Assembly: GCF_000233695.2 (NCBI RefSeq)
Contig: NZ_CM001488.1
Location: forward strand, 2,044,403-2,108,402
Length of the DNA stretch: 64,000 nucleotides
Source: Desulfobacter postgatei 2ac9
GTDB lineage: Bacteria > Desulfobacterota > Desulfobacteria > Desulfobacterales > Desulfobacteraceae
Direction: 5' to 3'
Every line of letters starts with the position of its first letter. Position 1 is the stretch's first letter. Under the pieces are notes generated by a model. It had not been told where the DNA came from. It worked only from the letters and a program-made list of their open reading frames with translations, and made no database searches. Position numbers and translations under genes: made by a program. This document shows positions 9,844 to 25,336 of the stretch, one piece after another.

Positions 9844-10530
9844 ATGAAATTCTCGGCAATAGATGTTCTGATAACTTGTGTTTGTCTCATTTCAATAATT
9901 TTTTGTTCAACTATCATTACTATTATATTCTCTTCTGTATTTCGAAGTAGTGACGAATATTTACCTATCATAAAAATGATTTTATTTTTAGTGTTTTTTT
10001 TTCTCCTATTAGGCGGTATATATCCACGAGTATTACGATTATTTTGTCCGGCTAAAGATTCAATTTTCTCTTCTGAAGATTCAACTATTGAGTGTCTTTT
10101 CTGGAAGCAGACCGTGTTCAGTTATGAGTTGACCGTTTCTATATTTGCCTATATTATTCCAGTTCTTCTCAGAGCCCCAGTCTACAGATTATTGGGGGCA
10201 AGAATTGGCAAAGGCGTTTTGATCGCTGGCAAGATAGTCGAACCTCAGATGGTGACTTTAGGCAATTACTCTCTTTGTGGAGAAATGTCTCTATTAATGG
10301 CTCATGCGATAATGGGAGATAAAGTTGTTTTAAAAAAAATAACTATTGGGGACAACGTGTCCGTGGGGGCTCATGCCATCATTATGCCCGGAGTAGCTAT
10401 AGGCGATAATTCTATAATTGCAACTGGATCCCTTGTACCTATGGATACAATAGTCCCTGCAAATGAAATTTGGCGCGGGATACCAGCCAAGAAATGGAAA
10501 TCAGTAGACCCTTTTGATGTCAAATCTTGA
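9844..10530 (+). CDS. Membrane-anchored hexapeptide-repeat acyltransferase
   Basis: A 228-residue protein with two N-terminal membrane helices (about residues 5-30 and 40-62) followed by a left-handed beta-helix of hexapeptide repeats (IGKGVLIAGKIVEPQMVTLG, IGDNVSVGAHAIIMPGVAIG, then GDNSIIATGSLV) and the closing IWRGIPAKKWK. This is the acetyl/acyltransferase family acting on sugars. Its place after a methyltransferase and before a glycosyltransferase suggests polysaccharide decoration. The catalytic His common to the family may be H167-169 in GAHAIIMPG, by analogy. Confidence 0.7.
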   Translation: MKFSAIDVLITCVCLISIIFCSTIITIIFSSVFRSSDEYLPIIKMILFLVFFFLLLGGIYPRVLRLFCPAKDSIFSSEDSTIECLFWKQTVFSYELTVSIFAYIIPVLLRAPVYRLLGARIGKGVLIAGKIVEPQMVTLGNYSLCGEMSLLMAHAIMGDKVVLKKITIGDNVSVGAHAIIMPGVAIGDNSIIATGSLVPMDTIVPANEIWRGIPAKKWKSVDPFDVKS

Positions 10531-10536
10531 TAAAGC

Positions 10537-10706
10537 TTGGCTCATGTTGCGTTTCAGGGTCTTTTTAGGGGATGATAAGTCTAACTATTTAAAATATATA
10601 ACAAAATAATCCAGCCTTGTAATATACAAAACATTGATATTACTAATTATTTCAAATACATAGGGCTTTTATCAAAAATAAAATCCCAAAACACAACATG
10701 AGCCAA
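10537..10706. mobile_element. MITE-like 170-bp element with terminal inverted repeats
   Basis: TTGGCTCATGTTGCGTTTCA at 10537-10556 is matched by the complement of 10687-10706 (TTGGCTCATGTTGTGTTTTG), differing at few positions over 20 bases. The interior of about 130 bases is AT-rich and non-coding. It fills the gap between the acyltransferase and glycosyltransferase genes. No transposase or clear target duplication was seen. It could instead be a large terminator-like structure. Confidence 0.5.
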
Positions 10707-10743
10707 AAATAATTTAGGGCTCGAATTGCCTTGGAACCAATTA

Positions 10744-11991
10744 ATGACCCGACCAAATATACTAATTTTACCCTATATGCCAACCTTATCACATACCTCA
10801 AGACCGCTTGAGATAGCTAAACTTTTAAGGGCGGATGGCTGTAATGTTTTATTTGCAGGATTTAATACAAATAAGTCCAAGTTTTCTTTCATAGAAAAAG
10901 AAGGATTTAAATGTTTAGCATTGTTTGAACCCGACCCAGATACTCTTTTTACTAATATCAGAAACGGGAAAATGAAATTTGTTTCTGCCTTAACGTTGGA
11001 TCAAATAGTAAAAGCAGATATCAATTTATTCAAAAAAGTTGCTCCTGACTTGATTTTATCGGACGGCAGGTTTTCAGCTATGATATCAACTCAAATTGCA
11101 GACATACCGCATGTAGCCGTTGTAAATGCATCATCCACAGAATATCGAAGCATTCCTTACATACCATTTTTTGAAAAAATCTTTCCTCTCTGGATGCGCG
11201 AACATAAAAACTTTCGTCAATTTTGCGATAAAATGAATCTGAAAATAGAAATGGCCGTTTTTGACAACGCTATGAACCATTTTAAACGTCTTTCCAAAAA
11301 ATACAACCTGAAACTACCGGTTACAGCAACCAACTGCCTTGCCGGCAAAGATCTTACATTGTTGGCTGATATTCCTGAATACTTCCCAGTTAAAAATCAA
11401 CCTGATAACTACCATTACATTGGCCCCATTACTTGGAAGAGATCTGTTAACACGCCCAAGCCAAGGTGGTGGCCCCTTCCTGAAACGGATAAACCTAAAA
11501 TTTATCTGACCATGGGCACAACCGGTGAAAATAATCTTTTTTCATTAATATACAACTACCTCAAAAAGTCCGATTTTATAACCATCATTACAACAGGCAG
11601 CCAAAACGATCAGTTTAAAACCATCCCTGGCAGAATTTATGTTGAGGACTACATTGATGGAGAAGCCGTTCTTAAAAAATCAGATTTAGTTATATGTCAT
11701 GGCGGAAACGGCACCATATACCAGGCTATTGGCAAGGTAACGCCAATTATTGGCATACCCACAATCCCTGATCAGGATTTTAATATGCGACGAGTAGAAG
11801 CACTGGGTGTCGGGATTAGGATACCCATAAAAACCATTTTAAAAAAACCGGACATCCTGATGGATAAAATTCAGACAATTCTGACGAACAAAGATTATTT
11901 TAAAAAGAATCTATACAAACTGCAAACAAGTCTTAAAAAATATACAGGGGCAGATATTGCTGCAGATTTAATTCAATCTTATTTGTCGTAA
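10744..11991 (+). CDS. UGT/MGT-type (GT1/GT28-like) glycosyltransferase
   Basis: A 415-residue GT-B fold glycosyltransferase. The N-terminal domain reads ILILPYMPTLSHTSRPLEIA, the acceptor-side pattern with a conserved His; the C-terminal domain has YLTMGTTGENNLF and the nucleotide-sugar motif SDLVICHGGNGTIYQAIGK followed by PTIPDQDFNMRRVEALGVGI, as in MurG/UGT/EryCIII families. I prefer ATG at 10744 over a TTG at 10726 because the family starts at (R)PNILI. It may transfer a sugar to a lipid or small molecule in the local surface-glycan pathway. Confidence 0.78.
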   Translation: MTRPNILILPYMPTLSHTSRPLEIAKLLRADGCNVLFAGFNTNKSKFSFIEKEGFKCLALFEPDPDTLFTNIRNGKMKFVSALTLDQIVKADINLFKKVAPDLILSDGRFSAMISTQIADIPHVAVVNASSTEYRSIPYIPFFEKIFPLWMREHKNFRQFCDKMNLKIEMAVFDNAMNHFKRLSKKYNLKLPVTATNCLAGKDLTLLADIPEYFPVKNQPDNYHYIGPITWKRSVNTPKPRWWPLPETDKPKIYLTMGTTGENNLFSLIYNYLKKSDFITIITTGSQNDQFKTIPGRIYVEDYIDGEAVLKKSDLVICHGGNGTIYQAIGKVTPIIGIPTIPDQDFNMRRVEALGVGIRIPIKTILKKPDILMDKIQTILTNKDYFKKNLYKLQTSLKKYTGADIAADLIQSYLS

Positions 11992-12215: not shown

Positions 12216-13787
12216 TCAAAAGGTGTATAACACTTCAACGTATCCCCGGTCGTTCTCATTAAAGAGCCCAAAATCTCCGTCGCTTTCTCCATAAAAAATA
12301 TCCACCCCGCAAATGATTTTTAGATAATCATTATGATTATAGGTGATTTTTGGCCGAAGCAAATAATCCCTCTGATTCAAGCTTGAAACCATGAACAATT
12401 CCAGTTCGATCTTATCTTCAAAAAATTCTTTTTTCATCCAAATAGAAAGAGCGGTAGTATACTCCTTTTGAGTCATGTCTGCCTGATAATCCAGAATGAT
12501 TTCCTGCAGGAGCTGGAAATTTGTTTCCAGGGAGTTTAAGAATGTATAATCCACACCAAGCAGCCACTTGAAGGTATCACTTCTAACTATTCCGTCATTG
12601 TCAGCAGGATTCTGCGAAGAGATAAACATCTCATGATTATAAATAAATTCCCCCTTGAAAACAGCGTCCATGTACTCTTTGGAAAAGGTGTGTCCAAACC
12701 TGTGCATTCGTTCATATTCCGGTTGGTATGTAATGCTTATGGGCTGGCTACTCCCGACTGGATTAAATGAAATATACCGGTAGCTCACTGGAAAGTTATA
12801 ATAATCGTATAAATAGAATACGGACAGATCCCATCCGTCCATCAACTTTGACGCCCGGAATCCCAGTTCGCTATTATCAAGACTGTTCGCCGGCTCATGG
12901 CCTTCATTCATAACGATATCTGCATTTTGTTCATAAATCAATCTGGAGAAATCAAATTCCGAACCCTGTTTGCCAAATTCATTAAATTCAGGATACGGAA
13001 TAAAAACAAACTGGAGATACAAGCTGCCAGGGTAATACTCCAGGTTAATTGCAGGGACGGGAATTCTAATCTGATCCAGATCCGGCAGGATATATTCCCT
13101 CAAATCATTAGGGTTGACAATATCGGCAAAGAAGAGTCCCACAGCCTCCCCCCAGACAATCTGTTGATTTCCAATTCGCAATTCGGCATTTCCCCAACTA
13201 AAATCCACGTAGGCATCCCTTAAATCTGTCTGCTTTTTTTGATCACTTTCAACACCTTCATTATAGTTGTCGGTTAGATCAAAGACAGCGTCATAGGACA
13301 ATCTGCCTCCAAACACATAGGACAAATTATCAGAAACCCTTCCGGATAGATTAAAATTGAAATCTGTTTTAATTTTCGAAAATTGATGGGGTTTTTTCAA
13401 ACGATAAGCGGTTTGGTTTCTCAAATCACCATTTACGGTCATGGATGCTGCCGTCCGGCTTTTTTCAGGCAACTGCCGGGATGGCATACCGGTATCAAAT
13501 GAGGGAAAAAGAGCGTCCAGACTTTCCTGGTCCAATTCGCCTGTATTATCCGGCTGAGAAGTATCGGTATTATTTTTTATAGTTTCATCATGATCCATCG
13601 ACCCAGCATCTTTTTGAACTGTAGTTGATTTGGCAATACCCATAGTTTCGATTTGGTGCTTTTGCTGATGGGCAATATTAAGGTGTCTGTTGGACGCTGA
13701 TGCGTCAGATGGATCAAGGCTCCATATCCACATGTGGATGACAAAAATAATGAAGCAAAAACAAGCTTTTTCCATCATTGAACGCAT
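12216..13787 (-). CDS. DUF1302-like outer-membrane beta-barrel protein (copy 1)
   Basis: A 523-residue protein with an N-terminal hydrophobic export signal (FCFIIFVIHMWIWSL), a low-complexity linker to about residue 100, and a barrel of alternating amphipathic strands ending in an aromatic residue (EVLYTF), as outer-membrane barrels do. The block ELRIGNQQIVWGEAVGLFFA followed by NPNDLREYI is shared with the protein at 21109-22578 and is characteristic of DUF1302-type barrels. It is the last gene of a four-gene minus-strand set (ATPase, permease, LolA-like, barrel). I infer that it is the outer-membrane end of an export route for a lipid or hydrophobic compound. Confidence 0.72.
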   Translation of the reverse strand: MRSMMEKACFCFIIFVIHMWIWSLDPSDASASNRHLNIAHQQKHQIETMGIAKSTTVQKDAGSMDHDETIKNNTDTSQPDNTGELDQESLDALFPSFDTGMPSRQLPEKSRTAASMTVNGDLRNQTAYRLKKPHQFSKIKTDFNFNLSGRVSDNLSYVFGGRLSYDAVFDLTDNYNEGVESDQKKQTDLRDAYVDFSWGNAELRIGNQQIVWGEAVGLFFADIVNPNDLREYILPDLDQIRIPVPAINLEYYPGSLYLQFVFIPYPEFNEFGKQGSEFDFSRLIYEQNADIVMNEGHEPANSLDNSELGFRASKLMDGWDLSVFYLYDYYNFPVSYRYISFNPVGSSQPISITYQPEYERMHRFGHTFSKEYMDAVFKGEFIYNHEMFISSQNPADNDGIVRSDTFKWLLGVDYTFLNSLETNFQLLQEIILDYQADMTQKEYTTALSIWMKKEFFEDKIELELFMVSSLNQRDYLLRPKITYNHNDYLKIICGVDIFYGESDGDFGLFNENDRGYVEVLYTF

Positions 13788-13809
13788 GTGAATCCGTATA
13801 AAATGGTTT

Positions 13810-14562
13810 TTAGTATTTTAATTTTTTTAAATAATTTTTCGTAAATACTCTGTCAGGAAAATCATCCAGGGTCATGTTTGAATAATCAATGATGGTCTTC
13901 TGACCTTCAACCAAGGGATTATCAAGAACCAGCCGGGTAGGCCTAATTTGGTCTAAAAGCTTTTCATAGTTTGTGTAATAGCAAGTTTTTAAAAGTTTGC
14001 CGGAAAAAGCATAAAACTCACCTTTTAAAGGATAATAGGTATCCTTCATCACCCATAAATTAACTTTGTGATAGGTTACCCTTTCATCCTTGGCCGTCAG
14101 TTCAAGGATATAAAATTCTTTCCCTTTGATAATCACCGTATCTTTCAGTACAGGATCATAATCTCCTGAAAAATTGGCTCTGGCAATGTCCCCGTTTGCA
14201 GCCTCACCGAAAAGTCTTTGCTGAAGAGAAATCCTTAACGGTTTGGAGATATTCTGTAAGAAAGCCCATAAATCATAGCGTAGCATTAAAAGGGAGGTTC
14301 CTTTGTCCATCGCGGGTTCCAATGTCTTAATGATGGTTTTATCCTTGCCCTTCATCCATATTTCATAAACAGCAATTTTATCTTCTTTACCCGGTTTTTT
14401 GCTGATGATCCTGGCGGTTACCCGGTAATCTTTTTTAGGGGCTCTTATTTCATCTGCATATTCAAGAATTTTTAGGGCTGTAATTTCTTCAGCCGTTAAT
14501 ATTTTTAAAGGAAAAACTGAACATATAAAAATAAGAGCCAGTATTATTGTTATTTGCTTCAT
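13810..14562 (-). CDS. LolA-like periplasmic lipoprotein/lipid carrier (copy 1)
   Basis: A 250-residue protein with a signal peptide (KQITIILALIFICSVFPLKI, cleaved near TAEE) and the 'outer membrane lipoprotein-sorting protein' fold: TARIISKKPGKEDKIAVYEI, IWMKGKDKTIIKTLEPAMDK, WAFLQNISKPLRIS and the C-terminal strands KTIIDYSNMTLDDFPDRVFT. It is the LolA-superfamily type that accompanies RND/MMPL or ABC transporters and carries hydrophobic cargo across the periplasm. It sits 9 bases after the permease gene and 22 bases before the barrel gene. A paralogue is at 20307-21080. Confidence 0.75.
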   Translation of the reverse strand: MKQITIILALIFICSVFPLKILTAEEITALKILEYADEIRAPKKDYRVTARIISKKPGKEDKIAVYEIWMKGKDKTIIKTLEPAMDKGTSLLMLRYDLWAFLQNISKPLRISLQQRLFGEAANGDIARANFSGDYDPVLKDTVIIKGKEFYILELTAKDERVTYHKVNLWVMKDTYYPLKGEFYAFSGKLLKTCYYTNYEKLLDQIRPTRLVLDNPLVEGQKTIIDYSNMTLDDFPDRVFTKNYLKKLKY

Positions 14563-14571
14563 AAAAGGATC

Positions 14572-15828
14572 CTAATAGTGCCTGAGGGCATCCGTAATGT
14601 TAAGGTTTGACGCTTTATATGCCGGATAAAAAGAAGATATTAACGAGGCAGCAACAGATATGAACATTGACGAAATCAGAAGATCCGGCACAATTCTTAT
14701 AAGAGCTGTCCAGCCGACCGTGGCTCCCGGCGGAGGTGGCATGGGAATTCCGAAAAATGATATTATCTTGGCCAGAATCACACCAAGGGCGATACCTGCT
14801 GCACCTCCAAGTACCCCAAGAATAAAACCTTCAGCCAAAAACAATCGTAAAACATCATTTTTTTTATATCCCATGGCCATTATTGTCCCGATTTCCCTGG
14901 TTCGCTCCCATATAGCCATATTAATGGTATTAAAAATACTCAGGACGACAATAACCATGATAATCAGCTTTAGTATAAAAAACTGTTTTCCATACAATTG
15001 AACCGTTTTGTTGTAAAAGTCAGCCAATTGCTTCCATATCTTAAGCTCTAAAGGCAGCTTCCCCTTTTGAATGATTTTCAACACTTCATCTCTTGCTTTT
15101 TCCGTGTTTTCAGTCCGGTCCAGAAGAACTACCAGGGTCTGGACCCCCTCAGTCCGTATTAAATTTTGCGCCATTTCAATGGGAAGCCTTAGCGCCCTGT
15201 CATCAAACTCTTTAGCTGCTGTAAAAAATATTCCTTTTACATTCATGTCAAAGGCGTTTAGAGACCCGCCCACTGTATTTGTCAGCAATACCAATGAGTC
15301 CCCTGGCTTTGCCCCTAAATTTTTAGCAAGCCCTCTTCCAAGAATGACCTCAAATTGATCCTTTTTGGCAAGATTATCCCCCTCCTGGATAGCAAGCCCG
15401 GTCTCAGCATCTTTAATATTTTCAATTTTATTTAAAAGCAACTCGCCTTCCGGATTAACCCCCTCACAAAAAACAGAAACCGTATTATCTCCTGTACTGA
15501 TCATTCCTGAAAAAGCGATCCTTGGTGTCACCAATGTAACATGCTCTATAGCAGAAATTTGCCGGATAATTTCTTCAGTATCCTCAATCAAATAATCAAA
15601 GGGTGCTGATGCGCCATGATCGATGTAACCTTTGGCATATATTTGGACGTGTCCCAAATGGCTGTGAATCACAGCCTCTCTCATCTGCAAAAACGTATCT
15701 TCAAAGAACCCCCCGGCAATGATGATAGAAACCGATCCGAAAGCGATGGCGGCAAGGGTTATGAGCGTCCTGATTTTATTTCTGAATACGTTTCTTATTG
15801 CCAGCTTGATACTGATTGGAATGTTCAT
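14572..15828 (-). CDS. FtsX/LolC-type ABC transporter permease
   Basis: A 418-residue permease with an N-terminal membrane helix (RTLITLAAIAFGSVSIIIAG), a large periplasmic MacB_PCD-like domain (to about residue 270) and three C-terminal helices (FILKLIIMVIVVLSIFNTIN, GFILGVLGGAAGIALGVILA and one near 14680). This is the LolC/E-MacB topology for extracting lipids or lipoproteins from the inner membrane. I start it at MNIPISIKLAIRN (15828), 4 bases after the ATPase stop, rather than at an upstream ATG (15894) that would overlap it. Confidence 0.85.
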   Translation of the reverse strand: MNIPISIKLAIRNVFRNKIRTLITLAAIAFGSVSIIIAGGFFEDTFLQMREAVIHSHLGHVQIYAKGYIDHGASAPFDYLIEDTEEIIRQISAIEHVTLVTPRIAFSGMISTGDNTVSVFCEGVNPEGELLLNKIENIKDAETGLAIQEGDNLAKKDQFEVILGRGLAKNLGAKPGDSLVLLTNTVGGSLNAFDMNVKGIFFTAAKEFDDRALRLPIEMAQNLIRTEGVQTLVVLLDRTENTEKARDEVLKIIQKGKLPLELKIWKQLADFYNKTVQLYGKQFFILKLIIMVIVVLSIFNTINMAIWERTREIGTIMAMGYKKNDVLRLFLAEGFILGVLGGAAGIALGVILAKIISFFGIPMPPPPGATVGWTALIRIVPDLLISSMFISVAASLISSFYPAYKASNLNITDALRHY

Positions 15829-15832
15829 TTGT

Positions 15833-16606
15833 TTACTCTTCAGTTGATCTTCTACCTTGAACCCGGTTCCGGTAATCACCATCACAATTGCCATTTTTTT
15901 TTATATTACCTTTCCGGTCAAAATAATCGTGTTCCACAATTTTACCGTCAGTAATTCGGATAATCCGGCTGGCCATTTGCATGACCTTTAAATCATGGGT
16001 TGAGAAGATAAACAACGTATTTGAATCTTCATTTATTTTTTTCATGATATTCAGCACATCTTCGCCTGTTTTCTGATCTAGGTTGGCTGTCGGTTCATCC
16101 GCCAGTATGATCCTGGGTTCCGTTACCAGAGCCCGGGCAATGGCCACCCGCTGCCGCTGCCCTCCGCTCAATTCATCCGGCCTGTTTTTCATATACTTTT
16201 CCAGATCCACACTTTCCAGGGATGCTCTTACCCGGTCTGAACGCTCGCCCCTGTTCCTAACGGTTTTCAACAGAGGATATTCCACATTTTCAAACGCTGA
16301 CAGCACCGGTATCAGGTTGAAGGTTTGAAAGATGAAGGAAAGCTTGGCAAGCCGGATGTCAGCCAGCCGATTGGAAGAGAGCGTGGACACCTCTTCGCCG
16401 TCTATTTTGATACTCCCGCTGCTGGGCTTGTCAATACATCCAATCAGGTTTAAAAGTGTTGTTTTGCCGCTACCCGAAGGGCCGGCAATGGCAAGGAATT
16501 CTCCCTCGTTGATTTCAATATTGATATCATCCAGTGCCTGCACCTTTGTCTTGCCCAGATAAAATACCCGTGAGACCTTTTCGGTTTTTACAACAACCCC
16601 GGCCAT
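15833..16606 (-). CDS. LolD/MacB-like ABC transporter ATPase
   Basis: A 257-residue ATPase: Walker A GPSGSGKTTLLNLIG (about residues 39-53), signature LSGGQRQRVAIARAL (about 143-157), Walker B IILADEPTANLD and the switch His in FIFSTHD. It is of the LolD/FtsE/MacB subtype that partners with FtsX-like permeases, here the gene just downstream. The C-terminal 30 residues (DYFDRKGNIKKNGNCDGDYR) are an unusual extension. It heads the four-gene export set. Confidence 0.88.
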   Translation of the reverse strand: MAGVVVKTEKVSRVFYLGKTKVQALDDINIEINEGEFLAIAGPSGSGKTTLLNLIGCIDKPSSGSIKIDGEEVSTLSSNRLADIRLAKLSFIFQTFNLIPVLSAFENVEYPLLKTVRNRGERSDRVRASLESVDLEKYMKNRPDELSGGQRQRVAIARALVTEPRIILADEPTANLDQKTGEDVLNIMKKINEDSNTLFIFSTHDLKVMQMASRIIRITDGKIVEHDYFDRKGNIKKNGNCDGDYRNRVQGRRSTEE

Positions 16607-16623
16607 TAGATAACTCCCCCCTC

Positions 16624-17208
16624 CTATTTTGATTCAAACTCAACATCCCAATAAATTTCAGACAACGGCAATTCACAATTAACTGATTCCATTTTTAGAA
16701 TCCGGTCTGCACCTTTGTATGAACGGTATAGCCAGCCATCACCACTGCGTGTATATTGTTCAACACGACACTCTTTTTGGGAAACAAGGATATATTCTTG
16801 AAGCGTGGGGATCGTTTGGTAATAAGCAAACTTTTTCCCTCTATCAAATACTTCCGTTGAATCTGAGAGAATCTCCATGATGACAACCGGGTTCGTCAAT
16901 GTGTCAAATTCATCATCCTCAAACTCTGCATCACCGCAATAAATTACAATATCCGGGTAAACATAATTCTCGGCAATTTTAACCCGCATGTCATTGGAAA
17001 ACAGATTACAAGTGGATTTATCTGCTTTGAATTTTCCCCCTAACGCTACTGTAAGATTAACATTGATACGGTTATGATTTCTTCCGGCCCCAACCATGGC
17101 AAAAGCTTCACCATCAAAAAATTCATATTTAATATCAAGGGCGCTTTTTTCAAGTGCAAGATATTCCCCCGGTGTCATCTTATTTTTATCCTGCAGTTGT
17201 GCGGTCAT
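16624..17208 (-). CDS. Uma2-family (DUF820) putative endonuclease
   Basis: A 194-residue protein of the Uma2/DUF820 family, a PD-(D/E)XK nuclease fold: MTPGEYLALEKSALDIKYEF, FDGEAFAMVGAGRNHNRINV, the catalytic-type segment VKIAENYVYPDIVIYCGDAE and the EILSDSTEVFDRGKKFAYYQ block. Members are abundant in cyanobacteria and some deltaproteobacteria; the biological role is not established. It lies between the ABC genes and the ThiF fusion on the same strand and is probably a passenger. Confidence 0.85.
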   Translation of the reverse strand: MTAQLQDKNKMTPGEYLALEKSALDIKYEFFDGEAFAMVGAGRNHNRINVNLTVALGGKFKADKSTCNLFSNDMRVKIAENYVYPDIVIYCGDAEFEDDEFDTLTNPVVIMEILSDSTEVFDRGKKFAYYQTIPTLQEYILVSQKECRVEQYTRSGDGWLYRSYKGADRILKMESVNCELPLSEIYWDVEFESK

Positions 17209-17264
17209 ATCCCTTAATCCTTCCCTCTTAATTTTTAAAAAGAATGAGACAACAAGCCTCAGAT

Positions 17265-19292
17265 CTAAATTAAAAAGCTTTCAATGCCCTTTCGACGTGT
17301 AAAATGCCGGATCGGGCGTCCATGCCCCACCCTGAAAAGCATCACCTGGCCGTTCTTAGCATCAACACTCCGGAAAAGTTTGAAATAGTCTTCTCTGACT
17401 GAATTCAGTAAATCCTTGTGTTTTTGCATAAACTTTCTCCCCTGATTCAAAAACAGCCGCATAAAAAAAAGTGTAATTGCTGTCATTGGCTGAATATGAT
17501 ACCCCTGCCGCGTCAATTCAAGCCAGACCCGTTCCAGCGCTCTGCCTCCCACCAAAAAGTCCTTATTGCCACTCCCCTCAACTGTTAAGAGTATGACGGC
17601 AGAAGAATTAATAATTCCCTGATAAGAATGAAACGCAACCATCCGACCTATACCCGCGTTATTAAATGCATTCATAACGGCCCACGGTTTGGAGATTTTC
17701 AAAAAGATTTCGCCTGCCGGACCGGCCTGGAGATTTTTCAAAGGAAGCCCGTCACCGGTTTTTTCAACCTCGCCGGGAGAAAAACGAATCATCTTCATAA
17801 GATGCTCATGGAGTGAACGGTGTTCCGTTCTGATACGGTCAATGGTATATACAATTTTTGCAAGCTTTTTTATATCTTCTCTTTGGGTGACAACATGTAA
17901 TTTTGCCCCAGGAAAACCGGATATAACACCATCAATAAGATTTAGTGCTGATTTTGAAAAAGATTCCCGGCGAAACATTGTCCGGTTTGTATGTCTTTTC
18001 CATATAAACTCGTGCAAAGGATCTTTTTGAACATGGGCCATGGGTTTAAAATGAATTCGGGCACCGATTCCTGATAGATTATCTTTTAATTCAATTTCAG
18101 GTTCAACCCCGAAAAGGCCGGCGGCGACGTTTATGTTTTCAATGGCCGCCCCACAAGAGATAATTGAGGCGATTTGATTGACATTAAAAAAGGAGTGGTC
18201 GGCATCCGGGTCTATCCAAACGGAAACCTGGTTATCGGTGATAGAAAATTTCCATGGTTGGGCATTATCCCCCGACGGCGCCTGGATACCCGCCATAACA
18301 AGATATCTTAAAGCCTTCTCCGGGAGGGGTGTTTTTTCCATAGATGATATTTGGGGGATCTCCGGGATATTAACAGGCGCTTTATTTTTTCGAGATTCAA
18401 TCATTTTTTTCACAATACCGATCTTCATTCGCTGAATAGGATTCCGATTTCCGAAATGTAATTTTCCCTTTCTTAATTTCATCAAAAAAGGGTCAAACTG
18501 GAAATAGTGCGGAACCGGCTTAAGGCCTTTTCTGTTTAAAATAATACGCAACGCTTCCGTTCCGGCCATTCCCGCACAAATCTGGCAGGCAACATTTAGG
18601 GAAGGGCCTGCTTCTTGTTTCAGATTCACTGTTGAAAAATCCATGTACTTGATGTGGGTTGCCCTGGGCGCCAGACCAAGAGCAAATGACAAAGATTTCT
18701 CTTCCGGGCTCATATTCTCAACAATATTGAAATATTCATCAAATCCCATTCCCTGGTTCGGAGCAAAGACTAAAAGCGCGGAACTAAAGCCCATAGGGCC
18801 GGCAGTTACGACATAAATCCCTTTTTCCCTGGCCCGCTTGAAAAGCTGCCGCCTGATGTCAAAGCAAAAAAAATCAAGCCCATCAAGAACGACATCCACC
18901 CCTTCTAAAAATGCGTCAATATTATCCGGTTTAATTCCATGGGGAAACGTTTTAATATTTATATGAGGGTTTATAAGAAGGGCTTGTTCTTTCATGACAT
19001 CCAGTTTAGGTTTTCCAAAACAACCGGTATGTGCCCCATATTGCCTGTTGATGTTAACGGGTTCAAAAACATCAAAATCAGAAATATGAAAGTTGCCAAC
19101 GCCTGAGCGAACCATGGTGATCAAATGGAGACCGCCAACCCCACCCATGCCTGGAATTGCAATTTTTGCTCTTTTTAATTTTTTTTGTTCAGCCCGGGTT
19201 AATAATCCTATATTTCGTGAAAATGCCTGGTCATAATATTCTGAGGCGGAATGGATATCATAGGATTCTAAGTGGCTTGAAAATTTTGGCAT
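17265..19292 (-). CDS. ThiF/E1-like adenylyltransferase fused to a nitroreductase
   Basis: About 675 residues in two domains. The first (to about residue 310) is an E1/ThiF/MoeB nucleotide-binding domain with IAIPGMGGVGGLHLI, FDVFEPVNINRQYGA and VDVVLDGLDFF, ending with VACQICAGMAGTEALR. The second (about 340-675) is a nitroreductase-like FMN domain beginning LRYLVMAGIQAPSGDNAQPW, with HTNRTMFRRE in the middle. E1-like enzymes adenylate a carboxyl group; the flavin domain may then reduce or oxidise it. I start at MPKFSSHLE (19292); an upstream TTG (19400) would add 36 residues and neither has a clear ribosome-binding site. It is divergent from the acyltransferase at 19544. Confidence 0.8.
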   Translation of the reverse strand: MPKFSSHLESYDIHSASEYYDQAFSRNIGLLTRAEQKKLKRAKIAIPGMGGVGGLHLITMVRSGVGNFHISDFDVFEPVNINRQYGAHTGCFGKPKLDVMKEQALLINPHINIKTFPHGIKPDNIDAFLEGVDVVLDGLDFFCFDIRRQLFKRAREKGIYVVTAGPMGFSSALLVFAPNQGMGFDEYFNIVENMSPEEKSLSFALGLAPRATHIKYMDFSTVNLKQEAGPSLNVACQICAGMAGTEALRIILNRKGLKPVPHYFQFDPFLMKLRKGKLHFGNRNPIQRMKIGIVKKMIESRKNKAPVNIPEIPQISSMEKTPLPEKALRYLVMAGIQAPSGDNAQPWKFSITDNQVSVWIDPDADHSFFNVNQIASIISCGAAIENINVAAGLFGVEPEIELKDNLSGIGARIHFKPMAHVQKDPLHEFIWKRHTNRTMFRRESFSKSALNLIDGVISGFPGAKLHVVTQREDIKKLAKIVYTIDRIRTEHRSLHEHLMKMIRFSPGEVEKTGDGLPLKNLQAGPAGEIFLKISKPWAVMNAFNNAGIGRMVAFHSYQGIINSSAVILLTVEGSGNKDFLVGGRALERVWLELTRQGYHIQPMTAITLFFMRLFLNQGRKFMQKHKDLLNSVREDYFKLFRSVDAKNGQVMLFRVGHGRPIRHFTRRKGIESFLI

Positions 19293-19453
19293 CGTATTTT
19301 TTTGTCTAAATCCAGAATTGTCTGGAATTAAAGTATCTTTGTTGGAAACGTGTAAACAAAATGAATTTTTCAAAATACCATCGGATATCGCTAAAGACAA
19401 GGTTAAAATTATACCCGGTGATTATGTTTCATTGTGCTCTCAGGGGAAAGCGC

Positions 19454-19483
19454 TTGACAAATAATTTTAAAAAATACACGATA
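19454..19483 (+). promoter_or_regulatory. Possible sigma-70 promoter for the acyltransferase operon
   Basis: TTGACA at 19454-19459 is a perfect -35 box; the -10 is weak (ACGATA at 19478-19483, 18-base spacing). It lies 60 bases before the acyltransferase start and in the divergent gap with the ThiF fusion gene. Confidence 0.35.
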
Positions 19484-19543
19484 GTACAGTGACTTTCGAT
19501 AGAATTTTCACACAAAAAAAGAGTAACCCAGGGTAAAATAAAG

Positions 19544-20284
19544 ATGATCACCAAAAGCCTTACCTACGACAAATTTCGTTTCGGTCAAGTCATAGATGAT
19601 GATGTCTTAAAAGATACCTTCCGGATGAGGTATGAAGTCTATGTGGAGGAGTTCGGGTTTGAAGATAGAGCCGACCATCCGGGTGGATTGGAAACGGATG
19701 AATACGAAAAAGAGTCGATCCATTTTGCCTGCCTGAATGAAACAGATTCCGTGGTCGGCACCATACGCCTGGTGCGCCATTCAGACAAAGGGTTTCCCAT
19801 TGAACATGCCACAAAATTAAGTTTACCGGGGGAAAAACCTGAGCCGGACAAAATCGGCGAAATTTCCAGACTTACGGTAACCAAAGACCTCAGGCGCCGT
19901 AAAGAGGACGGCATGTATGGCGTGGAGTCTTATTTAAAGAAAAAAGAAGGCGGGATACTGCCCGATGACGGGAGCATTCCAAAAGAGATGGCGGGCAGGA
20001 AAAACCCTATCATTGTCCTGGGGCTTTACCAGGTGATGCTCCATGAAAGTTTGCGACAGGGGCTGACCCATTGGTACATGATCACTGAAAAAAAATTATT
20101 CTATGCCCTGAAAAAATATGGATTTTTATTCCACCAAATCGGAGATCCTGTACAATATCATGGTGAGAGGGTTCCCTATTTTGCAGATATTCATGAACTG
20201 CTGGTCAATCTGAAGCACACCGATGCAGGCATGTATGACCTTATGCTTACCGGATTGGAAGAAGCGTATCGACCGGATATTTAA
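19544..20284 (+). CDS. PEP-CTERM/exosortase-associated acyltransferase (GNAT, LuxI-like)
   Basis: A 246-residue member of the GNAT-like acyltransferase family named for its co-occurrence with PEP-CTERM/exosortase systems and related to autoinducer synthases. Typical blocks are DDDVLKDTFRMRYEVYVEEF, ESIHFACLNETDSVVGTIRL, DKIGEISRLTVTKDLRRRKE and NPIIVLGLYQVMLHESLRQG. It probably transfers an acyl chain from ACP or CoA to an amine. It is the first gene of a plus-strand operon with a LolA-like carrier and a DUF1302 barrel (22 and 28 bases apart), suggesting that its product is exported to the outer membrane. Confidence 0.82.
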   Translation: MITKSLTYDKFRFGQVIDDDVLKDTFRMRYEVYVEEFGFEDRADHPGGLETDEYEKESIHFACLNETDSVVGTIRLVRHSDKGFPIEHATKLSLPGEKPEPDKIGEISRLTVTKDLRRRKEDGMYGVESYLKKKEGGILPDDGSIPKEMAGRKNPIIVLGLYQVMLHESLRQGLTHWYMITEKKLFYALKKYGFLFHQIGDPVQYHGERVPYFADIHELLVNLKHTDAGMYDLMLTGLEEAYRPDI

Positions 20285-20306
20285 TTTGGGAAGCAAACAA
20301 AGAATA

Positions 20307-21080
20307 ATGAATATCAAAGGTTATACCTTTATTATTATAGTTGTATTGCTGGTTTGGGTATGTCCGGCAGTGGCTATGGATGGTGCGCAGATCGCACAGA
20401 AGGTGGTGGACCGGGATCAAGGGCAGGATGCCACCTTAAAAATCCGTATGCTGCTGATCGACAAGGGAGGCAAAAAGCGATTCAGAAGCCTGATCACTGT
20501 GGTTAAAAAATACGGGAATGTATCTAAAAGCTATATACGCTTTACCTCTCCTGCCGATATAGAGGGAACTGCTTTTTTAACCTGGGAAAACAAAGCCAGT
20601 GACGATGATCAGTTCCTCTACCTGCCGGCACTTCAAAGGGTGCGGCGGATTGTCTCCAGTCAGAAATCCAATCGTTTTGTCAACACGGATTATACCTACG
20701 AAGACCTGCAGTCCAGGGAAGTGGACCAGGACGTACATACGGTCCTAAGAGAAGAAAAGTTAGATGACCATGACTGCTGGGTTCTTGAAAGCATCCCCAA
20801 AGCCACAGATGATTCCCAATATGGAAAACGGGTTACATGGGTTGTCAAAGAGATCTATCTGCCCATTAAGACCGAGTTTTATGATAAACGGAACAGACTT
20901 CATAAGATACTCACCGGTAAAGAAATTCAGAAAATCGAGGGGATCTGGACGATCCTTGATGCAGAAATGAATGATTTAAATAAAAACCATCGTACACTGC
21001 TGAAGACCGATGAAATAGGATATAATCGCGGCATTCCTGATGAAATTTTTACCAAGGGATATATGAGACATAATCAGTAG
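20307..21080 (+). CDS. LolA-like periplasmic carrier (copy 2)
   Basis: A 257-residue protein starting MNIKGYTFIIIVVLLVWVCP with signal cleavage after AVA, then AQIAQKVVDRDQGQDATLKI, the RVRRIVSSQKSNRFVNTDYT patch and VTWVVKEIYLPIKTEFYDKR. This is the 'outer membrane lipoprotein-sorting protein' family often placed beside RND (MMPL) transporters and DUF1302 barrels. The start ATG at 20307 follows the acyltransferase stop by 22 bases. Paralogue of 13810-14562 but clearly diverged. Confidence 0.78.
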   Translation: MNIKGYTFIIIVVLLVWVCPAVAMDGAQIAQKVVDRDQGQDATLKIRMLLIDKGGKKRFRSLITVVKKYGNVSKSYIRFTSPADIEGTAFLTWENKASDDDQFLYLPALQRVRRIVSSQKSNRFVNTDYTYEDLQSREVDQDVHTVLREEKLDDHDCWVLESIPKATDDSQYGKRVTWVVKEIYLPIKTEFYDKRNRLHKILTGKEIQKIEGIWTILDAEMNDLNKNHRTLLKTDEIGYNRGIPDEIFTKGYMRHNQ

Positions 21081-21108
21081 AACCTATTATTCTTCAAAAT
21101 GCCATTTA

Positions 21109-22578
21109 ATGCCCCTTTTATCAAGATATCGCTACGGTTTTTTTATTTTATCAAGCTTTATTTTCCTGTTTTTTTTATGTCCGCAATCCGCATTTTGTTT
21201 CAATCCCATAATGATTTGCCAGTCTACCGATTCAACTCAGAGTCAGTCGGTGAAGTCTTTGGAAGAGGGGGATGAACGTACGGATGACACCAGTAACCCA
21301 TGGGCCGGGGAAAGCTCACGGGATAGCGACAAGGATGAAGGCCTGTTTAAGCTGTCGGGGGAAGTGCACAACAAGTTTGCCCATGATGTAAGTGAGGACA
21401 ATAATTCAGAAGACGATATGATAAATCATTTCCAGGTGAGGATCGGAACACGCCTGGTGCATGGGGACCGGTGGCGTGCAGTGCTTTTTGTGGATGCAGA
21501 TTATTTTTCTTATGGCAATGATGGAGACTGGAAAGAAGATGCGGATATCCGGCTGGGTGAGGCCTATCTCAACTTCAGAGGCGACGGGTTTAATATGAAG
21601 ATAGGCAACCAGATCATCCGGTGGGGTAAAACTGATGCCTACAGTCCGCTGGATAATTTGAATCCCGAGGATTTTCGTGATGATCTTTCCGGTCGCCGGG
21701 AGGACCGCAAACGTCCCATTCCCATGGCTTCCATGGAGGTTTATGCCGGCAATTTAACCATTTCCGGGGTTTTTGTTCCGTTTTTTGTCAAATCGGAATA
21801 CGATCTTATAGGAACAGACTGGGCAGTATTCGGGCGAGCGGACGGGATACCGCTTATGGAAGAAGACCCTTCTGATTCTCTGGGAAACAGCGAAGGCGGA
21901 ATTCGTTTGTCCGGCATTGTTGAACGCCTGGACTGGGCACTTAGCTGGTTGTCTGCCAGGGAAGATCTGCCAACACCGGATACCCTTCTTCATCTCCCTG
22001 TGGGGTTTCCGCTTTCTGCAGGCAATCTGACAACATCTCAATTGGCATATTTTTTAAATGCCACCGGGAAGTCGGTGCTTCTCATTCATGACCGGCAAAA
22101 TATTTTCGGTTTTGAATTTGAAACTACATTGGATTCTTTCGGGGTGAGAGGTGATCTGGCCTATATTGATCACACCAGTTATTTTACCCGGGACCTGGAG
22201 CGGATTCGAAAACCCGTGTTTCAGGCTATGGCAGGAATTGATTATAGCGGCGTAAACGACTGGTATGCCAATTTCCAGGTTTTGATCAGCCGGATCCGGG
22301 ACTACGAAACCCGGATTGTCTGGGCCAAGGAGACAACACGGGCCATCAACGGCACCCTGTGGAAGGATTTTTTCAATGGAGATTTAAGAGTGGAATGCCG
22401 CTATTATTATGACCTGTCAGGAGATGCGACTGTTTTGACTCCCAAGGTCCGTTTATCTTTCTGGACGCCGGTGATATTTGAAATCGGCGGGGAATGGTTT
22501 GATGGAACCGAGGAGACGATTCCAGGCCGTTTTCAAAACAACGATCAGGTGTATTTAACTGCTGAAATAAAATTTTAG
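21109..22578 (+). CDS. DUF1302-like outer-membrane beta-barrel protein (copy 2)
   Basis: A 489-residue protein with a signal peptide (LSSFIFLFFLCPQSAFC), an acidic low-complexity linker (about residues 40-80) and a barrel ending in LTAEIKF with a terminal Phe, as expected for BAM-dependent insertion. NMKIGNQIIRWGKTDAYSPL followed by NPEDFRDDLSG aligns with the copy at 12216-13787. Both barrels are the last genes of their operons, each after a LolA-like gene. No RND pump is encoded nearby for this second set, so it may share the ABC exporter encoded at 14572-16606. Confidence 0.75.
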   Translation: MPLLSRYRYGFFILSSFIFLFFLCPQSAFCFNPIMICQSTDSTQSQSVKSLEEGDERTDDTSNPWAGESSRDSDKDEGLFKLSGEVHNKFAHDVSEDNNSEDDMINHFQVRIGTRLVHGDRWRAVLFVDADYFSYGNDGDWKEDADIRLGEAYLNFRGDGFNMKIGNQIIRWGKTDAYSPLDNLNPEDFRDDLSGRREDRKRPIPMASMEVYAGNLTISGVFVPFFVKSEYDLIGTDWAVFGRADGIPLMEEDPSDSLGNSEGGIRLSGIVERLDWALSWLSAREDLPTPDTLLHLPVGFPLSAGNLTTSQLAYFLNATGKSVLLIHDRQNIFGFEFETTLDSFGVRGDLAYIDHTSYFTRDLERIRKPVFQAMAGIDYSGVNDWYANFQVLISRIRDYETRIVWAKETTRAINGTLWKDFFNGDLRVECRYYYDLSGDATVLTPKVRLSFWTPVIFEIGGEWFDGTEETIPGRFQNNDQVYLTAEIKF

Positions 22579-22625
22579 ATGCTACATATAATAAAATGCA
22601 GGCTGAAAAGACGAACATGCCGTCT

Positions 22626-23495
22626 TCAGCCGGAAGTCAGGGGAAGAATCTGCCCGGTTGCTGAATATGCGATAACACGCTCGATCATATCTGCCCCATA
22701 ATATCTTTTCACCTTCTCTTCATCTTCATTTTCTTCAAAGGGCAGCTCAATGGGGGTTGATCCTGATTCAAAAAAGAAATGATACAGGTTTTTCTTTTTT
22801 GGCATGTTACCATAAATTTCTTTAAATCTTTGTGCGACTGTATTTAGATCCACGCGAAGGGCCACGGCAGGGTTATTGTTTACATAGGAAAAGGAGGAAA
22901 TTTGTCCGATTTTTTCAAATAAAAGGATATCTTCGTAAATTTTTAAATACTTTGGGTGAATCGTAATTAATAAGTCGTCCGCGCAAATGGTGTTAATCGC
23001 ATATGACACTAGGAGACGGTTCCCCAGCATAGGGATATGTTTATTCCCTTTTCGGTATAACGGATGTGATGCCAGGCACCCGACTTCAACAAGGCGGCGC
23101 CCCTGGCTTCTTAACTCGTCCACCTGAGGTTTAAATCCAATATCCATGGGAAGGCCTTCTTGTTTATCATCCGGAAATAGGCTTGCAGTATATATGGGCG
23201 TTTTTCCAGCCTGATTATCCGTCAAGCAGCCCATAAAGACCCTTGCTTCGGGATTAGAATGGTGCCGGATAATTCTCAATGGGGGAGAGGTAGGTTCAAT
23301 AAACCCGGCTTTTACATAAACATCATGCAGCAGCCTGAAACAGGACATATACTCTTCGATACTGCATGCCTCACAAAAGGTGATGTCGTCCAGATTGGTT
23401 TGAAGATCAGGAAGACGGCCACGGATGATTCTTTTTCTAAAGTACGCCGGCACATAAGGCAACAACAATTTTGTTAATGTATTTGAAATATTCAT
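22626..23495 (-). CDS. FeeM-like N-acyl amino acid synthase (GNAT)
   Basis: About 290 residues. The core from residue 35 on (DLQTNLDDITFCEACSIEEY, SCFRLLHDVYVKAGF, MDIGFKPQVDELRSQGRRLV, EVGCLASHPLYR, LLITIHPKYLKIYEDILLFE) matches the N-acyl amino acid synthase FeeM-type GNAT fold, a relative of LuxI-like autoinducer synthases. Such enzymes join an acyl-ACP chain to an amino acid. Several in-frame upstream starts exist (up to 23684); I use MNISNTLTKLLLP at 23495. It converges with the DUF1302 gene and follows the signalling operon on the minus strand, so it may be co-transcribed with the latter. Confidence 0.68.
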   Translation of the reverse strand: MNISNTLTKLLLPYVPAYFRKRIIRGRLPDLQTNLDDITFCEACSIEEYMSCFRLLHDVYVKAGFIEPTSPPLRIIRHHSNPEARVFMGCLTDNQAGKTPIYTASLFPDDKQEGLPMDIGFKPQVDELRSQGRRLVEVGCLASHPLYRKGNKHIPMLGNRLLVSYAINTICADDLLITIHPKYLKIYEDILLFEKIGQISSFSYVNNNPAVALRVDLNTVAQRFKEIYGNMPKKKNLYHFFFESGSTPIELPFEENEDEEKVKRYYGADMIERVIAYSATGQILPLTSG

Positions 23496-23700
23496 AACGC
23501 TTGAAATGAAAGCAGTTATCATGCCAGTGTAAGGAAATACCCGTTTCAGCGAGTTTAGACATAAATACTTCATGAATAAGAAAAAAAAGTTACGAAAACT
23601 ACAACAGCAGTTACAAAAATTGCACTGCCTGAGTCGAGTCAGATCATATAGGGTGACAATCAAACTGTTTAACAATATATTCAATAGATATTTAAAACTC

Positions 23701-24090
23701 TTACATTTTCTTCCAGCGGTTCACTTTTTCGAATGCGGATTCAGCTGTTTTCAATAGTGTTGATACATTCACCGGCTTTTTAAAATAATCCTCAAAGCCG
23801 ACATCAAGGCATTCCGACAGTTCAAATAAAGAGGCATAGCCGGTAATGGCATAGATAATAGACATGGGCTTAATGCTTTTTACTCTCTTACATAATTCCA
23901 TACCGTTCATCACCGGCATATTTAAATCAAAAAACATGACCATAATGTTATTCTCTTCGATGATTTTTAATGCATCCCGTGCATTTTCTGCGGTGAAAAC
24001 CTCATAACCGGCTTTGGTAAATACCTGGGAAAGCAATCTTAAAATGGGGGGTTCGTCATCAACGATTAATATTTTTTTATTTTCCATCAT
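23701..24090 (-). CDS. Single-domain response regulator
   Basis: A 129-residue CheY-like receiver with the acidic pair in ILIVDDEPPI, the phosphoacceptor Asp in VMFFDLNMPVMNG (about residue 54), Thr in YAITGY and Lys in YFKKPVN. No output domain. Its start overlaps the stop of the PAS-HisKA gene by 4 bases, so it is the likely partner of that protein. Confidence 0.88.
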   Translation of the reverse strand: MMENKKILIVDDEPPILRLLSQVFTKAGYEVFTAENARDALKIIEENNIMVMFFDLNMPVMNGMELCKRVKSIKPMSIIYAITGYASLFELSECLDVGFEDYFKKPVNVSTLLKTAESAFEKVNRWKKM

Positions 24091-24863
24091 TCTTTCTCCT
24101 TGTCTGGGTTGGGGTCTGAGATATTAATAGAAGATGCTGCGTCAAGGTCCAGGATTTCCGAACTTAAATACATTTTTGTTTTGTACTGGGTGATAGCCAT
24201 CAGCTTATTTGTAATCTCAGCCAGCCGTTGTGCCTGGTCTCTAATTTCCTTAACATTTTCTTCTTGGATTTGTCCATCAGCGATTTCATCAATTAATAAT
24301 TCTGAAAAACCTAAAATTACCATTAAAGGCTGATTAATTTCGTGGCATATGGCGCCTGCGGTTCGAATCACCGCTGTCAGTTTTTCCTTTTCTATTTTTG
24401 CGCGCTCATAGTTCTTTGCGTTTGTAATATCCTCAATTGACAGTAAAACGGCTGTTCTTTTTTGTAATTGAAAGGGTTGGGTCGTTATTCTTAAATGCCT
24501 GCGCCCTATGGATTTAAAGGTCATGGATGTTTCAACCTGAAAATGCCCCTTGGTATTTTCAAAGGTATCATTCACTGTCATCCTCAATTTACATTTACTG
24601 CACTCTTTCCCAAATCCGCAGCCCTCAGGGGCATCTTCGTGATGAATGCAGCCAAGGGCGGTCCCACCTACAAGCCCGACGAGTTGATTATCCTTCTTAT
24701 TTACAAATATGCAGACCATTCTGTTGGCCAAAACCAGTTTCAGGTCCGCGTCAATCACCGCGACCGCAATCGGTAAATTGTTAATAACCCGCAGGATATC
24801 ATCCTTAGAAAACACTGTCGGAACATCCAATATGGTTTCTTTTATTTTAATTTCATTGGACAT
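24087..24863 (-). CDS. PAS-HisKA protein without an ATPase domain
   Basis: A 258-residue protein with a PAS domain (about residues 20-150) and a HisKA dimerisation/phosphoacceptor domain with H174 in AICHEINQPLMVILGFSELL. It ends at residue 258 without any HATPase N, G1 or G2 box, so it cannot phosphorylate itself. The PAS domain contains a Cys cluster (GC at 72, then C82, C88, C91) seen in some deltaproteobacterial PAS domains. Because the CheA of the same operon has an ATPase but no phosphoacceptor His, H174 is a candidate substrate for CheA. It could also be a decayed kinase. Confidence 0.8.
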   Translation of the reverse strand: MSNEIKIKETILDVPTVFSKDDILRVINNLPIAVAVIDADLKLVLANRMVCIFVNKKDNQLVGLVGGTALGCIHHEDAPEGCGFGKECSKCKLRMTVNDTFENTKGHFQVETSMTFKSIGRRHLRITTQPFQLQKRTAVLLSIEDITNAKNYERAKIEKEKLTAVIRTAGAICHEINQPLMVILGFSELLIDEIADGQIQEENVKEIRDQAQRLAEITNKLMAITQYKTKMYLSSEILDLDAASSINISDPNPDKEKE

Positions 24864-24880
24864 TGAAACGCCCTTTGCCG

Positions 24881-25336
24881 TTATTGACTCATACTGGTAG
24901 ACAGTAAAATAGCCATTTTCGAATCCATGGTTTCAACCAGCGTGCATGTTGCACAGCCATCAAGATCCGTACCGGTAATCATTCCGGGGATGCCGATCTT
25001 AAAAGGCAACGTGCATTTTACATTTTTTAAGGCATTCCCGGACACCATATTAAGCATTTCAGACAATGTCCCAAACCGCTTCTCCCAAGTCAGTTCATCT
25101 TTGCTTTCGCCCAAAAAATTGGATGCAAGTTCTGCTACCAGTGGTGCCGGTGAAATAAGATCTATATTTCCACAGATATCCCCGGTAAAATTCAACCGAC
25201 ATGCCAATGCTGTATTCAGGTCGATGCCGGACTCATTTAAAATCGTTTCAGGACCTGTTTCAACCGGCATAAAAAACATGGTCTCCATAACTTCAGAAAT
25301 CGAATTCGTTATCGCTGTCATCAATACTTTCTTCAT
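24881..25336 (-). CDS. cheX: CheX-family phosphatase
   Basis: A 151-residue CheX-like protein: FFMPVETGPETILNESGIDL, CRLNFTGDICGNIDLISPAP, and the catalytic ExxN helix in TLSEMLNMVSGNALKNVKCT. CheX removes phosphate from CheY-type regulators. I start at MKKVLMTAITNSI (25336). The gene still overlaps the 3' end of the cheY-like gene by 44 bases in a different frame, a notable overlap that implies coupled translation. Confidence 0.8.
   Translation of the reverse strand: MKKVLMTAITNSISEVMETMFFMPVETGPETILNESGIDLNTALACRLNFTGDICGNIDLISPAPLVAELASNFLGESKDELTWEKRFGTLSEMLNMVSGNALKNVKCTLPFKIGIPGMITGTDLDGCATCTLVETMDSKMAILLSTSMSQ

Follow-up and report, generated by a model that had tools for sequence, protein, structure and literature searches.

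A candidate envelope-lipid pathway in Desulfobacter postgatei and the exchange of export pumps in related loci

In Desulfobacter postgatei 2ac9, two acyltransferases, a fusion of a ThiF domain with a nitroreductase domain, and two sets of putative export proteins are encoded within 11 kb, which raises the question of what such a cluster makes and where the product goes. The DNA studied (the window) is a stretch of 64,000 nucleotides (assembly GCF_000233695.2, contig NZ_CM001488.1, positions 2,044,403-2,108,402, forward strand), with 12216-23495 as the interval of interest. A preliminary description of this interval had proposed that the set makes an N-acylated or lipid-like product, activates and reduces it, and exports it to the outer surface. 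Pfam and NCBIfam profile searches, used to check the gene calls, found all the genes named there in their places, while showing that a Uma2-family gene (16624-17208) and a glycosyltransferase and hexapeptide transferase (9844-11991) had been missed, and that the FeeM-like open reading frame (ORF), as called, extends to 23684. The analysis establishes the gene set, its recurrence, and the exchange of an ABC (ATP-binding cassette) pump for an MMPL/RND pump in related loci. The reading that we consider moderately probable is that of an envelope-lipid pathway, whose product would be a lipid of the N-acyl dehydroamino-acid or oxazolone kind, perhaps carrying a sugar and destined for the outer membrane.

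The biosynthetic core consists of a ThiF cyclase-flavin oxidase (FDO) fusion, encoded on the minus strand at 17265-19400 (ThiF 156 bits; nitroreductase 25.5 bits, barely above the cut-off of 23.5), and of two acyltransferases. One of these, a TIGR03694 PEP-CTERM acyltransferase of the N-acyl amino acid synthase (NAS) family (19544-20284, plus strand; 176.9 bits, cut-off 111.95), is divergent from the fusion gene, its start lying 143 bases away in the opposite direction, and has acyl-homoserine lactone synthases as its best PDB matches; the other is a FeeM-like NAS (22626-23684, minus strand; PF21926 117 bits, cut-off 27) that matches the FeeM structure 2G0B (E 6e-6). In the accounts given in PMC10404671 and PMC12856293, the NAS of the OxzAB, TyzABC and TrzAS systems acylates an aromatic amino acid, the ThiF domain cyclises the product with ATP, and a nitroreductase-superfamily oxidase desaturates it; TrzS is there a ThiF-FDO fusion whose nearest solved FDO homologue is Acg. 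The latter (2YMV) is also the best solved match for the FDO domain of the window. Since these characterised relatives oxidise, the nitroreductase domain should oxidise and not reduce, and the reduction step first proposed was rejected; context and homology do support the N-acylated amino-acid product, its activation by the E1-like domain and its export. A role of the fusion in molybdopterin or thiamine biosynthesis (ThiF/MoeB) was likewise rejected, given its best models (PRK14851 and PRK14852) and its NAS context.

At the residue level, the fusion is 44-55% identical to 11 fused relatives, and its ThiF domain carries the nucleotide-binding motif GMGGVGG and an aspartate (D175), both of them invariant in the 12 sequences. 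D175 is in register with the CTDN aspartate of E. coli ThiF, and its equivalence to D217 of TrzS runs through the published E. coli ThiF comparison. R523 and Q636 of the FDO domain are also invariant in the 12 sequences, and their spacing of 113 residues, compared by spacing alone, is close to the 111 that separate R540 and Q651 in TrzS. The Rv1355c/TrzS family model NF005901 gave 269.9 and 211.7 bits against a cut-off of 476, so that the protein is not classed as a TrzS equivalog. As the FeeM-like protein matches positions 26-230 of PRK14852 and the fusion positions 303-986 (both below the model cut-off), and as NAS, ThiF and FDO lie in a single frame in two other loci (L044 and L045), NAS and ThiF-FDO can be regarded as linked. 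In two more loci (L043 and L075), NAS-ThiF and FDO were found split into two pieces that form a single frame in relatives, probably through gene decay or an assembly error.

The neighbourhood recurs. ThiF(-FDO) matches, at a threshold of E<=1e-40, were sought in 297 genomes of the phylum and in 59 relatives; they are patchy (16 of the 297), and several across the genome sets are to the ThiF half only. Regions around these matches, together with 80 named loci kept of at least 481 confirmed from a contig scan, gave 110 loci with a ThiF/FDO match, which were mapped with profiles grown from the window proteins. Removal at >=95% identity left 100, and features were counted in the 63 that are flanked on either side by 7 kb or more, the 37 short loci being uncounted. 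The controls were 20 regions of 20 kb, chosen by hand at round coordinates from six genomes that belong to the same GTDB family as the window, and cover that family and not the other phyla among the 63. ThiF and FDO occur together in 55 loci (as one ORF in 40), ThiF alone in 6 and FDO alone in 2. A NAS was found in 53/63 loci and in 0/20 controls (Fisher p 4e-12), and an exporter, defined as MMPL, or FtsX plus LolA, or LolA plus DUF1302, in 27/63 and 0/20 (Fisher p 2e-4), both tests ignoring phylogeny. FtsX (10 loci), MMPL (18), the glycosyltransferase (18) and the hexapeptide transferase (10) were each absent from the 20 controls, one of which had LolA alone. The 27 exclude L125, where FtsX is present and the locus ends before any LolA comes into view. 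By group, exporters accompany 18 of the 28 Desulfobacterota loci and 9 of the 35 others. The conserved co-occurrence that the preliminary description had suggested looking for is thus found, in other Desulfobacterota families and in Gamma- and Betaproteobacteria (Nitrosospira multiformis and Methyloversatilis universalis, L107 and L111, being examples that carry the full set); its concern that the two LolA/barrel sets might belong to unrelated genes elsewhere was also addressed, both LolA clades recurring beside the same core.

The same survey bears on a rival explanation that we regard as rather unlikely, namely that the products of the core are free N-acyl (dehydro)amino acids, signals or antibiotics, which exit without using the linked pump, while the two LolA/DUF1302 sets work in exopolysaccharide or PEP-CTERM surface biogenesis and are clustered with the core only as members of one surface island. 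It would fit the presence of XrtA/PEP-CTERM genes (PrsT, PrsR or PrsK) in 28/63 loci, though these are also in 3/20 controls. It would also fit the TIGR03694 gene, present in 18 of the 59 relatives, 10 of which have no ThiF-FDO match. Stieleriacines, moreover, are described as secreted N-acyl amino acids (PMC12856293). In favour of the core of the envelope-lipid reading, 11 relatives have a ThiF-FDO match (in G305 and G309 to the ThiF half only); 8 of them carry the TIGR03694 acyltransferase, and the other 3 (G318, G328 and G331) a NAS fused to ThiF, in a frame that is broken in G328. Three observations run counter to the rival explanation: the exchange of pumps around one core, the small-molecule bias of the glycosyltransferase's family, and the absence, among the 297 genomes, of any with the permease above 480 bits and no ThiF match (the exception among the relatives being G344). 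Each is taken up below.

The first export arm follows the fusion gene on the minus strand, in the order ThiF-FDO, Uma2, LolD-like ATPase, FtsX permease, LolA-like carrier and DUF1302 barrel (19400-12216), with gaps of 9 to 56 bases or an overlap, so that an operon is likely. The ATPase (15833-16606) scored 122.7 bits with PF00005 and 231.7 with TIGR02211 (cut-off 307.75), and the permease (14572-15894; MacB_PCD and FtsX domains) 119.3 with TIGR02212 (cut-off 362.45), which places both below the NCBI LolD and lolCE cut-offs. The AlphaFold2 model of the permease (predicted local distance difference test, pLDDT, 84) has LolE chains of LolCDE as its best PDB matches, followed by MacB and LolC; the top match is 9rld_E, LolE in complex with Lpp (template modelling, TM, scores 0.66/0.70; 17% identity), and MacB comes fourth. 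As regards the Hook by which LolC docks LolA, the model shows a loop of low confidence at about residues 151-170. The LolCDE-like exporter first described therefore stands as to its ATPase and its permease of FtsX/LolE fold, and not as to LolC plus LolE, there being one permease; an ordinary LolCDE was rejected on this count and on the scores above. The system resembles LolCDE/LolA sorting in permease fold, ATPase family and LolA-type carrier, and differs from it in lacking the LolC-LolE heterodimer, in its sub-cut-off scores and in being tied to NAS, a glycosyltransferase and a DUF1302 barrel.

These likenesses are what recommends another rival, which we hold to be improbable: that FtsX, LolD and LolA form a second lipoprotein-sorting (Lol) system for certain surface lipoproteins, such as PrsT, unrelated to the acyl amino acid. 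The best fold match being LolE bound to Lpp speaks for it, as do the matches, though below cut-off, to the LolCE and LolD models. Proteins of the PrsT family, named by NCBI a PEP-CTERM lipoprotein, occur in 24/63 loci, including 4 of the 10 FtsX loci, and could themselves be Lol-type cargo, which makes this explanation slightly more likely and the envelope-lipid reading slightly less so. On the other side, HAE3-like MMPL/RND pumps occupy the same place in related loci, and the permease tracks the glycosyltransferase and NAS more closely than PrsT (10/10 against 4/10 FtsX loci).

The window in fact holds LolA-like carriers of two clades, with the ABC pump beside the first. With 7 of the carriers found in ABC loci the first carrier (13810-14562, minus strand; PF17131 165.5 bits) shares 39-55% identity, and with 10 carriers in the other clade 17-23%. 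The second, a LolA-like/DUF1329 protein of the RND-type clade (20223-21080, plus strand; PF17131 227.5 and PF07044 48.5 bits), shares 29-51% identity with 9 of the carriers found in MMPL loci and 19-23% with the 7 in ABC loci; its gene is overlapped by the TIGR03694 acyltransferase ORF as called, and is followed by the second DUF1302 gene (21109-22578, plus strand; PF06980 42 bits). The first barrel (12216-13787, minus strand; PF06980 75.1 bits), modelled as a barrel by AlphaFold2 (pLDDT 76) with weak TM resemblance to porins and AlgE, is 28-39% identical to 8 ABC-locus barrels and 15-24% to 11 others. The second shares 26-32% identity with 5 barrels from MMPL loci of Desulfobacterota, but 13-19% with 5 further barrels from MMPL loci and 16-21% with 8 from ABC loci; over all ten barrels from MMPL loci the range is 13-32%, so that the barrel is harder to assign to a clade than its carrier. 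Both pairs working in one route, as the preliminary description had them, is disfavoured by this split of the carriers between two clades tied to two engines, and each arm looks more like an export route of its own, alternative to the other.

Two types of exporter replace each other in these loci, one with a LolDE-type ABC pump and one with an MMPL/RND pump. LolA and DUF1302 accompany FtsX in 9/10 loci and MMPL in 14/18, and FtsX and MMPL never co-occur in the 63 loci. The MMPL protein of related loci is HAE3-like (174 bits, below the model cut-off). In G309 (L159), genes for an acyltransferase, DUF1302, a LolA-like protein, PrsT, MMPL and ThiF lie together on one strand. The MMPL homologue of the D. 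postgatei genome is at G000:C1:958298-960547, about 1.1 Mb off and without such neighbours. On a ThiF tree of 66 rows, made by a quick method, 9 changes of state were counted for FtsX and 10 for MMPL, over 62 of the rows. Among the pairs listed, near ThiF relatives that differ in pump include L077 (ABC) and L052 (MMPL), L051 and L048, L055 as compared with L054 and L061, and L063 and L085 as compared with L084 (L051, L055 and L085 being short loci); L037 also differs in engine from L038 and L068, the L037 group being weakly supported. The mutual exclusion of FtsX and MMPL had a raw Fisher p of 0.05, and in independent pairs (0 concordant, 2.5/6 opposed) it was not significant. A further region, L149 of G313, holds several TIGR03694-type acyltransferase genes, an MMPL gene and a weak match to the ThiF/FDO profile.

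Upstream of the interval and outside its bounds, on the plus strand, lie a hexapeptide (LbH) acyltransferase (9844-10530; PF00132 38.7 bits) and a GT1/UGT-like glycosyltransferase (10726-11991). The latter has EryCIII-like_C, Glyco_tran_28_C and UDPGT domains, 108.5 bits with TIGR01426 (cut-off 260), and PDB matches to UDP-glycosyltransferase 202A2, YjiC and oleandomycin glycosyltransferase. UGT-type enzymes act mostly on small molecules, which, with these relatives, counts against a role confined to exopolysaccharide or surface-protein biogenesis. The glycosyltransferase was present in 10/10 FtsX loci and 18/63 loci overall; four short loci also have FtsX (L051, L055, L085 and L118), and it is visible in L051. 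It was also found in all 10 searched Desulfobacterota genomes with a permease above 480 bits. Such a permease occurs in 6/297 phylum genomes, three of them of one genus. All six have a ThiF(-FDO) match (Fisher 9e-9) and the glycosyltransferase, which exceeds 100 bits in 8/297 overall (Fisher 3e-11), both tests again ignoring phylogeny. Permease and ThiF share a contig in G000, G091, G147 and G162 and are on separate contigs of fragmented assemblies in G120 and G148; the glycosyltransferase is on the permease contig in 3/6 (G000, G147 and G162). Among the 59 relatives, the permease (>590 bits) and the glycosyltransferase (>100 bits) mark the same five genomes, four of which have an adjoining ThiF-FDO, the fifth being G344. 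The hexapeptide transferase adjoins the glycosyltransferase in L071, L077, L090, L091, L093, L100, L114, L119, L195, L197, L198 and L199, and their association, when corrected for phylogeny, gave 3.5/7 independent pairs concordant and 0 opposed (p 0.25).

On these grounds the envelope-lipid pathway may be pictured as follows. One or both acyltransferases would, to judge from their family, acylate an amino acid, which is most likely aromatic, with a fatty acyl chain. By analogy with TrzS and OxzB, the ThiF domain would adenylate the carboxylate and close a 5-oxazolone, and the FDO domain would take two hydrogens to give an alpha,beta-dehydro product, whose ring might later open to an N-acyl dehydroamino acid. 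The tight pairing of FtsX with the glycosyltransferase suggests that the UGT-like enzyme glycosylates the product, which the hexapeptide transferase perhaps O-acylates. From fold and conservation, the LolDE-like pump would then draw the lipid out of the inner membrane, for passage by way of the LolA-like carrier and the DUF1302 barrel to the outer membrane or the medium.

Several observations weigh against this pathway. Neither pump is within reach in 35/63 loci; no NAS was seen in 10/63, although L078, which is among these, has a fused NAS that scored under the threshold; and the 6 loci with ThiF alone have no FDO nearby. With none of the PRK14851, PRK14852 and Rv1355c-family models does the fusion reach the curated cut-off. 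Once corrected for phylogeny, the FtsX-glycosyltransferase association has a mean of 5.2/6 independent pairs concordant and 0 opposed, with a median p of 0.06, and that of MMPL with LolA plus DUF1302 has 2.3/5 concordant and 0.2 opposed (p 0.5). In G173 (L158), the seventh and weaker permease match among the 297 genomes (328 bits) belongs to a more divergent LolD/FtsX/LolA operon without NAS, glycosyltransferase or ThiF nearby. G344 (L146) has the permease (592 bits), carrier, barrel, glycosyltransferase and two NAS, and no ThiF-FDO at E<=1e-40; the cargo, therefore, is not necessarily an oxazolone. Where ThiF-FDO would be, it has WbuX-like, AMP-ligase-like and thioester-reductase genes, and L146 is possibly a sister pathway with a different tailoring step. 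Pump and glycosyltransferase thus seem to be tied less closely to the oxazolone step itself than to N-acyl amino-acid chemistry. The oxazolones described in PMC10404671 and PMC12856293, furthermore, were mainly in cell pellets. Lastly, the characterised FDOs depend on O2, as described for TyzC and TrzS (PMC10404671, PMC12856293), yet the genome encodes dissimilatory sulfite reductase (DsrA, 602.5 bits, above cut-off), from which we infer a sulfate or sulfite reducer, probably an anaerobe. Either another acceptor serves the oxidase or the pathway runs upon exposure to O2, and the locus raises the question of how an oxidase with O2-needing relatives works in sulfate reducers.

How much of this is new can be judged by comparison with known systems. 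As in OxzAB, TrzAS and TyzABC (Pseudoalteromonas rubra, mycobacteria and Rhodococcus), the window has NAS beside a ThiF cyclase and a nitroreductase-superfamily oxidase, fused as in OxzB and TrzS; unlike them, it comes from a sulfate reducer and has two NAS genes, a LolDE-type pump, LolA-like carriers, DUF1302 barrels and a glycosyltransferase. Its ThiF-FDO is 31-36% identical to those of proteobacterial loci, OxzB, TrzS and TyzB/C having been compared by description. The stieleriacine, thalassotalic acid and kyonggic acid loci, proposed for N-acyl dehydrotyrosines, likewise combine NAS, ThiF and nitroreductase (PMC12479983); the account there names methyltransferases and no exporter or glycosyltransferase, its figure being limited to presumed biosynthetic genes. 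The monoterpene exporter AmeABCD of Castellaniella defragrans joins an HAE3 RND pump (AmeD) to DUF1302 and DUF1329/LolA-superfamily proteins, as the MMPL loci do (PMC6394551), but belongs to monoterpene metabolism, and the window has carrier and barrel with no RND pump beside them. A literature search returned, among the matches listed, no locus for an oxazolone or an N-acyl amino acid that also has glycosylation or LolA/DUF1302 export, which is weak evidence of novelty, most subscription journals being outside its scope. The earlier remark that no described pathway with exactly this combination was known thus fails for the biosynthetic part, described for OxzAB, TyzABC and TrzAS and proposed for stieleriacines, and holds for the envelope part: what is new is the engine-swapping export, the glycosylation context and the anaerobic setting, while the core chemistry is of a known kind. 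The fate of acyl-oxazolones has been called important, with a pointer to the MmpL transporter gene mmpL9 adjoining tyzABC (PMC10404671). A recurrent exporter whose engine is of one or the other of two unrelated types, while the core stays the same, points to the envelope as the intended destination of these lipids or of close kin. It also offers, for the DUF1302 and LolA_like proteins, a cargo that can be tested.

The TIGR03694 protein is reportedly treated by Craig et al. (2011; cited in PMC11072679) as an acyltransferase of the PEP-CTERM/exosortase system. Like that system, the D. postgatei genome has the TIGR03694 acyltransferase, an exosortase and a PEP-CTERM protein; unlike a linked system, its exosortase lies about 240 kb from the cluster. 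It is a long shot that the product is a surface glycolipid of a new class (an N-acyl dehydroamino acid in glycosylated form, or its reactive azlactone), formed without O2 through another electron acceptor, placed in the outer membrane by a dedicated Lol- or MMPL-driven route, and able to serve as the exosortase's nucleophile or anchor for PEP-CTERM proteins. The exosortase acceptor was left by Haft et al. 2006 as an undefined periplasmic nucleophile (PMC1569441); that this lipid fills the role is speculative and, if true, would explain the link between NAS and exosortase, so far noted without explanation.

As to the remaining genes, Uma2 (16624-17208, minus strand; PF05685 108.6 bits) was rejected as a member of the set and is probably outside its function: it occurs in 2/63 loci, has no counterpart between ThiF-FDO and LolD in L037, L040 and L041, and has a homologue of 362 bits at L038:4358-4945. 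Membership is uncertain for a class I methyltransferase (8869-9837, plus strand; PF13489 95.8 bits), matched in 4/63 loci. A PEP-CTERM surface protein, weakly PepA-like (7810-8730, plus strand; PF07589 30.2 bits; TIGR02595 domain above cut-off; PepA model 46.3 bits, below its cut-off of 80), is a possible member, and PEP-CTERM proteins with a sub-cut-off PepA match lie near the glycosyltransferase in L041, L195, L197 and L198. Transposase genes of the DDE_3 and DDE_Tnp_1 types are found at 888-1694 and 62352-63206, and 2472-2960 and 6332-7738 are transposase-like in appearance but match no Pfam family; the cluster may be mobile on its left side. Finally, 16 bases separate the FeeM-like gene from a response regulator gene that precedes it on its strand (22626-28484); still further upstream come genes for a HisKA kinase, CheX, another regulator, CheD and CheA, and NAS expression may be tied to a chemosensory operon.

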